Assembly: GCF_019823065.1 (NCBI RefSeq)
Contig: NZ_CP081966.1
Span: 6,169,501-6,233,500 of the forward strand
DNA from: Pseudomonas mosselii
GTDB taxonomy: Bacteria; Pseudomonadota; Gammaproteobacteria; Pseudomonadales; Pseudomonadaceae
Direction of reading: 5' to 3'
DNA: 64,000 bases
The notes beneath the pieces were generated by a model. The model had not been told where the DNA came from, did not search any database, and saw only the letters and a list, made by a program, of their open reading frames with translations. Below are positions 25,872-54,637 of this stretch, one piece after another (the first letter of the stretch is position 1; the number at the start of each line of letters is the position of its first letter). The position numbers were made by a program, and so were the translations under genes.

Positions 25872-26429
25872 GTGCCGTACGAAACCCCGCAAGCAGCCGC
25901 GGTCGCGTGGCTGGCGTATCCGCAGCTGGCGCCCCCCCTCGACCAGCCGACCCTGGGCTGGCTGTTCGACGAAGGCTCCCTGACCCGTCGCCTCACCCGT
26001 CTCTCACACGACCACTTCAGCGTCACCCCCCTGTTCGAGGGCTGGCAGCCCCTGCGCGACGACGAATGCGCCGCCTTGGGCCTTGCCCTCGGCGCGCAGG
26101 GCTGGGTCCGCGAGGTCTACCTGCGCGGCCATGGCCAGCCGTGGGTGTTTGCCCGCAGCGTGGCCAGCCGCACGGCGCTGGAACGCGGTGGGCTGGACCT
26201 GGAGACCCTGGGCAGCCGCTCGCTGGGCGAACTGCTGTTCTGCGACCAGGCGTTCGTCCGCCATCCGATCGAAGTGTGCAGTTATCCACAGAGCTGGCTG
26301 CCCGTGGAGGTCGCCAGCGCCGGGTTGTGGGGACGCCGCTCGCGCTTCGAGCGGGACGGCCTCGACCTGCTGGTGGCCGAGGTGTTCCTGCCCGCCCTGT
26401 GGCATGCGGCCAAGGAGGAGAACCGCTGA
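25872..26429 (+). CDS. ubiC: Chorismate pyruvate-lyase
   Basis: A 185-aa enzyme that makes 4-hydroxybenzoate, the ubiquinone ring precursor, from chorismate. I chose the GTG at 25872 ([14 protein letters not shown]), which matches the family length; the frame is open to 25785, but that part has REP-like composition. Motifs are '[19 protein letters not shown]' and '[21 protein letters not shown]'. The stop overlaps the ubiA start (TGATG at 26427), so the two are translationally coupled. A perfect DnaA-type 9-mer lies within it at 26282-26290. Confidence 0.93.
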
Positions 26430-52662: not shown

Positions 52663-54192
52663 TCAGCGCCGCCAAGCCTTGCGCAGACGCATCAACGCAT
52701 CCGCTATCTGCGCCTCCGGCACCGCGGCAAACCCCAGCACCAACCCTGCCCTGTTATCCACTGGCTCCTCGCTATCCTCCAGCCAGTAGCTGCTCAGCGG
52801 ATTGACCTCCACCCCCACCGCTTCCGCCCGAGCCACCAGCTCCTGCTCCCGCGCGAAGTTATCCACATCTACCTTCACATGCAGCCCCGCCGCCACCACG
52901 GGCATGGCCCCCAGCCCTGGCACGTCCTGCGGCCAGCCTGCCTTGAGCACATTGCGCCGCGCCAGCGCAGCCCGGCGCATGCGGCGGATATGCCGCTGGA
53001 AATGCCCCTGGGCCATGAATTGCGCCATCACGCACTGGGTGCCGACCTCCGAATGGCGTACCGCCAGCGCCCGGCATCGACTGAACGCCTGCACCAGACG
53101 CCCGGGAAGCACCAGGTATCCCAGGCGCAAGGCCGGAAGCGCGATCTTGCCGAAGGTCCCCACGTACAGCACTCGCCCCTGGCGGTCCAGCGAGGCCAGT
53201 GGCGCCAGCGGCACACCGCTGTAACGGTACTCGCCGTCGTAGTCGTCCTCGAGGATCCAGCCATCCTGGCGCTCGGCCCAATCCAGCAGCGACAGGCGAC
53301 GGGCCAGGCTCATGGTAACGCCCGTGGGGTACTGGTGGGCAGGCGTCACGTAGGCCAGCCGACACTCGGGCATCTCGGTCAGCCTTGCGCAGTCCATGCC
53401 CTCGGCATCCACCGGCACGCCCTTGAGCGTGGCCCCGGCCATCGCGAAGGCATGCCCGGCAGCCCGGTAGCCCGGGTTTTCCACAGCCACGCCATCGCCC
53501 GGTTGCAGCAGCAGCTGTGCACAAAGGCTGATGGCCTCCTGCGCGCCACTGGTGATCACTATTTGTTCAGCCGTGCAGCTAAGCCCCCGCGAGCGTCGCA
53601 GGTAGGTGGCAATCAATTCACGCAGCTGCCACTCACCGGCCGGGTCGCCATAGCCCAGCAACGCCGGGTCGGGATTTCGCCAGAAACCCGCTTGCAGCTT
53701 GGCCCACACCTCGAACGGGAACAGGTCGAACGCCGGCACGCCGACGCGAAAAGCCTTGGGCGCCCCGCCTCTGGGCAGCGGCAAATGATGATTCTTCAGA
53801 CGTTGCAGGGGCTCGCTGATGACTGCCTGCCTGGATAAATCCTCAGTATCTGAAGCACTATATGTGGATAAGTCTGTTGATAACCCCAGGGATAACCCTG
53901 TTGATAATTGTGTGGATAGTTTCGGCAGCTGGCTCACATAGGTGCCATCGCCAACCCGGCTCTCGATGAAGCCCTCCGCATACAGCTGGTCGTAGGCTCG
54001 CACCACGCTGTTACGCGACAGCATCAGCATCGCCGCCAAATCGCGGGTGGCCGGCAACCGCGTGCCGCTGCCCAGGCGCCCATCCAGCACCCTGGCGCGC
54101 AAGGCATGGTAGAGCTGCTGGCTCAGCCCGCGGCGGCGGTCCAGGACAATACCCGCGGGGTCGAAAGGCAGAGGATGGCAACGTTCGCTCAT
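52663..54192 (-). CDS. MocR/PdxR-type GntR regulator with an aminotransferase domain
   Basis: A 509-aa PLP-dependent regulator. The GntR winged helix is about 15-88 ('GLSQQLYHALRARVLDGRLGSGTRLPATRDLAAMLMLSRNSVVRAYDQLYAEGFIESRVGDGTYVSQLP'). A linker at about 93-125 includes five LSTx-like units. The C-terminal type I aminotransferase-like domain (about 130-500) has the PLP Lys in 'GTFGKIALPALRLGY' and 'TSGAQEAISLCAQLL'. The linker DNA contains five DnaA-box-like units in 12-bp register. It is divergent from the PaiB-like gene, its likely target. Confidence 0.94.
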   Translation of the reverse strand: MSERCHPLPFDPAGIVLDRRRGLSQQLYHALRARVLDGRLGSGTRLPATRDLAAMLMLSRNSVVRAYDQLYAEGFIESRVGDGTYVSQLPKLSTQLSTGLSLGLSTDLSTYSASDTEDLSRQAVISEPLQRLKNHHLPLPRGGAPKAFRVGVPAFDLFPFEVWAKLQAGFWRNPDPALLGYGDPAGEWQLRELIATYLRRSRGLSCTAEQIVITSGAQEAISLCAQLLLQPGDGVAVENPGYRAAGHAFAMAGATLKGVPVDAEGMDCARLTEMPECRLAYVTPAHQYPTGVTMSLARRLSLLDWAERQDGWILEDDYDGEYRYSGVPLAPLASLDRQGRVLYVGTFGKIALPALRLGYLVLPGRLVQAFSRCRALAVRHSEVGTQCVMAQFMAQGHFQRHIRRMRRAALARRNVLKAGWPQDVPGLGAMPVVAAGLHVKVDVDNFAREQELVARAEAVGVEVNPLSSYWLEDSEEPVDNRAGLVLGFAAVPEAQIADALMRLRKAWRR

Positions 54193-54637
54193 GACATTGG
54201 ACCTATGAAAACAGCCGTGAATGGCTCTTACCTAGAGCCAATAGCCTGCCTAGCATGGGGTCATTCAGCAAGGACATCCAGCATGTACAACAACACGTCC
54301 CACCAGGAACACGACCTCGACCGCCTGCACCGGCACATGCTGCAAACCCGCCTGGCCCTGCTGGTCAGCCAGGGTGACCAGGGCCTGCTGGCCACCCACC
54401 TGCCCGTACTGGTCGAGGCTGGCGAAGGCGAGTTCGGCACGGTCTACGCCCACCTGGCCCGGGCCAACCGCCAGTGGCAGGACCTGGAGCAAGGGGGCGA
54501 GGCGCTGCTGGTGTTTCCCGGTGCCGATGCCTACGTCAGCCCGAGCTACTACCCGAGCAAGGCGGACAACCCCAAGGTGGTGCCGACCTGGAACTACCTG
54601 GCCGTGCACGCCTATGGCCCGGTCGAAGTTATCCACA
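52754..54637. promoter_or_regulatory. Cluster of DnaA-box-like sites
   Basis: Perfect TTATCCACA occurs at 52859-52867 (+), 53863-53871 (-) and 54629-54637 (+). Near matches are TTATCCACT (52754-52762, +), TTTTCCACA (53477-53485, +), TTATCAACA (53875-53883 and 53899-53907, -), CTATCCACA (53911-53919, -) and TTATCCCTG (53887-53895, -). The five sites between 53863 and 53919 start exactly 12 bp apart and encode the LSTQ-LSTG-LSLG-LSTD-LSTY linker of the MocR protein with TTA/CTA leucine codons. DnaA binding is inferred, not shown. Confidence 0.6.
54222..54240. promoter_or_regulatory. Palindromic operator candidate between the MocR and PaiB-like genes
   Basis: TGGCTCT (54222-54228) and AGAGCCA (54234-54240) form a perfect inverted repeat with a 5-nt spacer, centred between the two divergent start codons (54192 and 54283). 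Such dyads in the divergent gap are typical operators of MocR regulators. A possible promoter for the PaiB-like gene is TTACCT (54228-54233) - 17 nt - TAGCAT (54251-54256). Confidence 0.6.

Follow-up and report, generated by a model that had tools for sequence, protein, structure and literature searches.

A phased array of DnaA boxes conserved within an origin-proximal MocR-family regulator gene of Pseudomonas

A MocR-family regulator gene close to the replication origin of the Pseudomonas genome analysed here (G000) contains a head-to-tail array of DnaA-box-like 9-mers in exact 12-bp register. Judging from its rare, nearly invariant codons, from a box that is kept in a second reading frame and from the linkers of orthologues that have no array, the DNA of this array is under selection, and not only the peptide that it encodes. 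On balance, we lean towards the view that this regulator gene also serves as a DnaA-binding (titration) locus near the origin. The initial annotation of this DNA, which had pointed out a cluster of DnaA boxes with a 12-bp periodicity, was correct in its observation and understated it.

Results

Five phased boxes in the linker of a MocR-family regulator

The window, i.e., the whole 64-kb stretch of DNA that was analysed (G000:C1:6169501-6233500), is part of a 6.28-Mb contig. According to a domain search, the product of the host gene (Table 1) combines a GntR winged helix (PF00392, residues 23-86, E 8.9e-15) with an aminotransferase-like domain (PF00155, residues 156-419, E 4.7e-24), and the array (53863-53919) occupies codons 92-110 in the linker between the two domains, where it is translated as LSTQ LSTG LSLG LSTD LST. 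Its five units, numbered in the table in their order on the - strand, all lie on that strand, head to tail, with spacers of 3 bp. The 12-bp register proved to be as initially annotated, with the qualification that only four of the five 9-mers in register differ from TTATCCACA by at most one base, whereas the middle one (53887, TTATCCCTG) has three mismatches; in many other relatives, the position of this middle unit reads TTTTCAACA or TTATCAACA.

The perfect TTATCCACA sites that had been annotated at 52859 (+), 53863 (-) and 54629 (+) are all three present. Among the additional sites in the MocR gene, the one at 52754 is one base away from the perfect box that most of the compared genomes have there, the one at 53830 lies within a GATACTGAGGATTTATCCAG stretch that is well kept in the nearest relatives, and the conserved sites at 53477 and 53516 belong to the putative element. 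A further perfect TTATCCACA occurs elsewhere in the window at 26282-26290 (+), outside the locus. The MocR gene also has a stretch of low synonymous diversity at 53548-53571 (codons 208-215, AEQIVITS; ratio 0.16) with a GTGATCAC palindrome, in which no DnaA box was found among the window hits of TTATNCACA at one mismatch or less.

Table 1 Host gene, array units and other box-like sites, with positions in the window (n/30, count among the 30 best-aligned genomes; H/E, synonymous diversity relative to expectation)
Feature	Position	Strand	Conservation or source
MocR-family regulator gene, 509 aa, host of the boxes	52663..54192	-	ORF list
Array box 1, CTATCCACA, codons CTA TCC ACA	53911..53919	-	CTA in 29/30, TCC and ACA in 30/30
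Array box 2, TTATCAACA	53899..53907	-	CTATCCACA, GTATCCACA or CTGTCCACA in many relatives
Array box 3, degenerate TTATCCCTG	53887..53895	-	TTA and TCC codons kept in nearest relatives
Array box 4, TTATCAACA	53875..53883	-	TTATCAACA also found in own oriC
Array box 5, perfect TTATCCACA	53863..53871	-	TTA TCC ACA in 30/30
Outlying box-like TTATCCAGG, 33 bp beyond box 5	53830..53838	-	H/E 0.27
Isolated box-like TTGTGCACA	53516..53524	-	Identical in 30/30, H/E 0.00
Isolated TTTTCCACA, fits TTWTNCACA	53477..53485	+	Identical in 30/30, H/E 0.00
Isolated perfect TTATCCACA	52859..52867	+	Identical in 30/30, H/E 0.00
TTATCCACT	52754..52762	+	Perfect TTATCCACA in 25/30, H/E 0.23

Box density and chance

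From base composition, about 13.5 TTATCCACA would be expected per chromosome and about 0.14 per 64 kb, near the initial estimate of about 0.1 perfect box per 64 kb; the chromosome has 106 of them, compared with 12 copies of the reversed word. In the window, TTATNCACA with at most one mismatch gave 19 matches versus 13.7 +/- 3.8 in shuffled versions, and since 11 of 100 shuffles reached 19, the window as a whole is unremarkable and it is the local cluster that stands out. When the linker was recoded synonymously 20,000 times, no version contained more than one box-like 9-mer, against the four observed.

The initial annotation had asked whether the locus is an outlier apart from oriC and had stated that a similar box density at many other genes would count against it. 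The answer differs between phasing and density: a search of the genome for box pairs in 12-bp phase returned the array as its only match, but perfect boxes are similarly dense elsewhere near the origin, with five of them in 2 kb each at C1:6272690 and C1:6247151. The idea of a mobile repeat was rejected: of the 106 TTATCCACA sites, the 71 whose flanks were compared have in common only that G is mildly preferred behind the box and that A is lacking in front of it, and the array region had no plasmid match.

Selection on the DNA of the array

Codon conservation was measured across the 30 best-aligned genomes, own included. The ratio of synonymous diversity to expectation (H/E) was 0.15 for the array versus 0.64 for the remaining 471 codons; for runs of four codons within the latter, the 1% point lies at 0.14. 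Across the 30 genomes, the array codons are mostly frozen, those of box 2 least so, and the residues just past box 5 vary freely. The Leu that opens each unit is encoded by TTA or CTA in all five cases; among 201 Leu codons in six neighbouring ORFs, TTA is used once and CTA never. The amino acids of the array are also conserved (mean 0.91). Since the isolated boxes 52859 and 53477 are on the strand opposite to the array, the boxes have no common factor in codon choice or in mRNA sequence.

Loss of boxes at synonymous positions in close relatives had been named beforehand as evidence against a function. The array and the other boxes of the MocR gene are retained at such positions, while the box of the neighbouring gene (54629) is indeed lost in this way and was dropped as a part of the element, as only 7 of the 30 genomes, own included, keep the site.

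Many relatives outside the nearest group have an extra perfect TTATCCACA behind box 5. In 90 of 119 named loci, among the matches listed, it starts exactly 46 bp after box 5 and is thus read in another frame, as VIH instead of LST. It recurs, always at 46 bp, in two further sets of array loci matched by a regular expression (12/19 and 20/20, together 32/39), which may share genomes with the 119-locus set, and in none (0/30) of the nearest genomes. The peptide can hardly account for a 9-mer that is retained in two frames.

Distribution and history

The array pattern (at most two mismatches) was found in 236 of 298 sampled genomes of the genus, in one copy each, and the reversed control pattern had no match in the same 298 genomes. 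Since 62 of the 298 are without the pattern, the array is not essential to the genus. The labels of the carriers among the matches listed include P. putida, P. fluorescens, P. syringae, P. viridiflava, P. monteilii and P. entomophila, and two of the rows listed with two mismatches (G161, G146) look degenerate. This count replaces a value of 176/298 obtained with a looser first pattern that caught CAACAG-type repeats and missed TTATCCCCA-type arrays. The array is present in all 70 fetched genomes (69 by regular expression, that of L084 seen by eye), but these comprise 50 genomes (30 + 20) from the better alignments and 20 more chosen for failing the looser pattern and are no random draw, so that 236/298 is the fairer figure.

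In a family sample of 198 genomes (165 outside the genus), searched with a looser and partly different pattern, the sole array-like match outside the genus was G423 (L181). Its MocR, at 79% identity, has the full array and is nested in the Pseudomonas array clade, which makes a transfer or a mislabelled genome the likely source. Two other array-bearing records, labelled as a Paucimonas MAG (L211) and as Pantoea sp. Cy-639 (L228), are perhaps mislabelled Pseudomonas.

Of 24 hand-picked genomes queried for MocR, 18 gave a close match (at least 63% identity) and six only matches of at most 39% identity; the orthology of the 18 was deduced from the best match, and a long branch carries L197 and L198. 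One of these close MocRs has the array and 17 do not (13 from other genera and four from the same genus). The array-less orthologues retain an open gene with a shorter linker, which in 15 of the 17 contains no box within one mismatch and in the other two, both of one genus, a single TTA TCC ACA. In the tree, the 46 array rows together with L095 form one clade (support 98/99); four of its 68 rows (L037, L038, L053, L088) were missed by the regular expression, and L161-L180 were left out. As labelled on the tree, the array requires two changes and not one, since L095, with CCCACA in boxes 2 and 4, was scored as array-less. The simplest history, we infer, would be one gain, perhaps from a single box that was tandemly multiplied.

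Proximity to oriC and the chromosome-wide field of boxes

The contig starts with two genes that we take, judging from their proteins, to be dnaA and then dnaN. Directly upstream of dnaA lies the box-rich oriC, with five perfect TTATCCACA and one TTATCAACA at 6280425-6280702, and the array is 57.4 kb away from dnaA, which bears out the earlier description of the locus as not far from oriC. Among 54 complete genomes picked by hand, the array is 48-158 kb from dnaA in 53 (median 85 kb), and in G029 it is present at 1.33 Mb. This proximity may simply be inherited synteny.

Perfect boxes gather around the origin as well. Within 1 Mb of oriC there are 95 of the 106 TTATCCACA (34 expected), and within 100 kb there are 42, oriC's five included. 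Their density is 21 per 100 kb in the latter range and drops to 0.18 per 100 kb beyond 2 Mb. Both strands are used about equally (right arm 31 + and 27 -, left arm 26 + and 22 -). In G203, 126 of 156 TTATCCACA are no more than 1 Mb away from the origin or the ends of the contig (100 of the 156 listed, the rest by sort order), and in G414, a member of another genus whose origin was deduced from boxes at its contig start, 52 of 64 are (50 of the 64 listed, the rest by sort order). In the 280 kb around oriC, 38 of 43 alignable boxes are identical in G190 (33 of 38 outside oriC; 4 of the 47 regional boxes were unalignable and left out), compared with 60 of 106 occurrences of 400 shuffled words (Fisher p 1.4e-4). 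Given this gradient and the identity of the boxes in G190, the array is one phased element in a selected, origin-wide field of DnaA boxes.

Three other origin-proximal regions are rich in perfect boxes that are scattered and unphased, i.e., 6272690-6275927 (7 in 3.2 kb), 6245908-6249008 (6 in 3.1 kb) and 77464-103421 (16 perfect boxes in 26 kb), and most of their alignable boxes are identical in G190. A perfect box is also located inside the dnaA gene (C1:1248-1256, -), again identical in G190, and G203 has one on the same strand at 1218.

Discussion

A proposed DnaA sink that would double with each initiation

The canonical box word, the TTATCAACA unit shared with the own oriC and the one-directional spacing of 3 bp all suggest that DnaA binds the array. 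Within each half of E. coli oriC, boxes of the same direction are separated by 2-4 bp and guide head-to-tail DnaA oligomers (PMC5742627). DnaA would load at the strong end box (53863) and, as on these E. coli boxes, spread through head-to-tail contacts to the weaker phased ones. Because the locus is duplicated early, soon after initiation, each initiation would double the DnaA sink, leaving less free DnaA and thereby hindering re-initiation, with the array acting as a single phased element of a wider, origin-centred titration domain. Chromosomal titration has experimental support in E. coli through a study of 2025, before which, according to the same source, such evidence was lacking (PMC12371093).

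The contribution of the array to titration is probably small, since 42 perfect boxes are already present within 100 kb of oriC and five more sites would add little. In B. subtilis, the removal of six clusters had a strong effect only when they were removed together, and the review that describes this also states that clusters with significant roles were not identified in that species (PMC5295017). The location of the array in a coding sequence could also hinder its use, as a DnaA site in B. subtilis rplB was seen in vitro and was unbound in vivo, with transcription suggested as one cause (PMC4447404).

Gene control, nucleotide switching and other readings

Alternatively, DnaA might form a filament on the array, at about 270-330 bp of the coding sequence, and so act as a roadblock that couples transcription of MocR to replication or to the level of DnaA-ATP. 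DnaA is able to act as a transcription factor (PMC8203912), and the conserved boxes of the locus are all inside the MocR gene, the neighbour's box not being conserved. Such control of the gene is nevertheless doubtful: the boxes occur in both orientations and extend over 1.2 kb of the gene body, the intergenic stretch 54193-54282 has no box among the TTATNCACA hits with at most one mismatch, and the conservation of scattered origin-proximal boxes elsewhere points to a regional rather than a gene-specific role.

The locus had also been likened to datA and DARS in the initial annotation; a conserved box locus near the origin was found, and the likeness to these two sites is by analogy only. The consensus of E. 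coli IHF is WATCAANNNNTTR, and datA and DARS2 need an IHF site. At one mismatch or less, this E. coli consensus, from which Pseudomonas IHF could differ, is absent from 52663-54280, and at two mismatches or less the only sites there overlap array boxes; the same scan returned eight sites (at most one mismatch) elsewhere in the window. A nucleotide switch, in which the array would assemble DnaA for ATP hydrolysis or ADP exchange, is rather improbable on these grounds, even though the locus has several same-direction boxes with strong and weak members and the essential datA boxes also point in one direction (PMC5742627). According to published descriptions, datA and DARS both lie in non-coding DNA (PMC4585315, PMC5742627), a feature that the array shares with neither; different rules might apply in a non-enteric genus. 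With boxes in one direction (five array units, - strand) but no IHF site found and a coding location, the array is, on the features tested, not a member of datA.

At the level of the protein, the LST-x tetrapeptide repeat might be a flexible linker, or its rare codons might pause translation between the domains. The repeat is in frame at a place that suits a linker, TTA and ACA are rare in the neighbouring ORFs, and the encoded amino acids are conserved, but this very improbable reading is largely contradicted by the near-invariance of the codons, by the second-frame VIH 9-mer at its fixed spacing, by the existence of orthologues without the array and by the conserved opposite-strand boxes, since conservation in both orientations argues against an mRNA or codon effect. 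That the locus is a second or relic replication origin is hardly credible: its box variants and TTATCCACAGGG with TTATCAACAG wording resemble the own oriC, but the lowest 40-bp GC in 52663-54282 is 0.35 (at 53832) versus 0.25 in the oriC region, so that this composition test reveals no oriC-type AT-rich unwinding element beside the boxes, and the array looks like one gain within a linker.

Titration of DnaA is the reading that we prefer. Its fuller form, namely that a phased DnaA platform selected near oriC in one clade created and keeps the array, dictates the LST-x linker and acts as an IHF-independent DnaA sink or assembly site in an origin-wide titration domain, seems to us evenly poised between right and wrong. 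If true, a DNA-level control sequence would have shaped the linker of a protein, and the array may contribute to the timing of chromosome replication. As the array can be erased by synonymous recoding that leaves the protein untouched, titration or local DnaA assembly would be directly testable outside E. coli, namely in a lineage where the boxes give a strong signal centred on the origin and where a compact, single-copy element occurs clade-wide.

Comparison with known systems

Among the titles listed by a literature search, none reports a DnaA-box locus in a Pseudomonas regulator gene, and there was no match for MocR with a DnaA box; subscription papers were mostly outside its reach, so that this absence is unproven. 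An origin-proximal accumulation of boxes has been published for E. coli and Salmonella (Olivi 2025, PMC12371093). As in E. coli, the boxes studied here gather around oriC beyond what composition predicts, which suits titration; in contrast, their TTATCCACA density next to oriC exceeds that beyond 2 Mb about 100-fold, and the two strands are about equal, whereas E. coli boxes prefer the lagging strand (Olivi, PMC12371093).

The left and right arrays of E. coli oriC likewise consist of same-direction boxes 2-4 bp apart (PMC5742627; 3 bp here), but the present array has no comparably AT-rich stretch and is not at the origin. With datA of E. coli it shares several same-direction boxes, strong and weak, and differs from it in being coding and in having no IHF site that we could find. 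DARS1 and DARS2 of E. coli are, like the array, compact conserved clusters of DnaA boxes outside oriC; the array differs from them in its coding location, in its five head-to-tail units in 12-bp register and in the lack of an IHF consensus in the scanned region.

The closest likeness is to the DnaA-box clusters (DBCs) of B. subtilis, which are thought to hold DnaA away from oriC (Okumura 2012, via review PMC5295017), that review being divided on how much they matter. In both cases box clusters are found outside oriC and yet near it, in the present case in many species. B. subtilis, however, belongs to another phylum, and the locus described here is distinguished by exact phasing, a coding linker and conservation across many species. 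To judge from these features, it is best filed as a real, selected array that is DBC-like, but embedded in coding sequence, phased and conserved across a large Pseudomonas clade.
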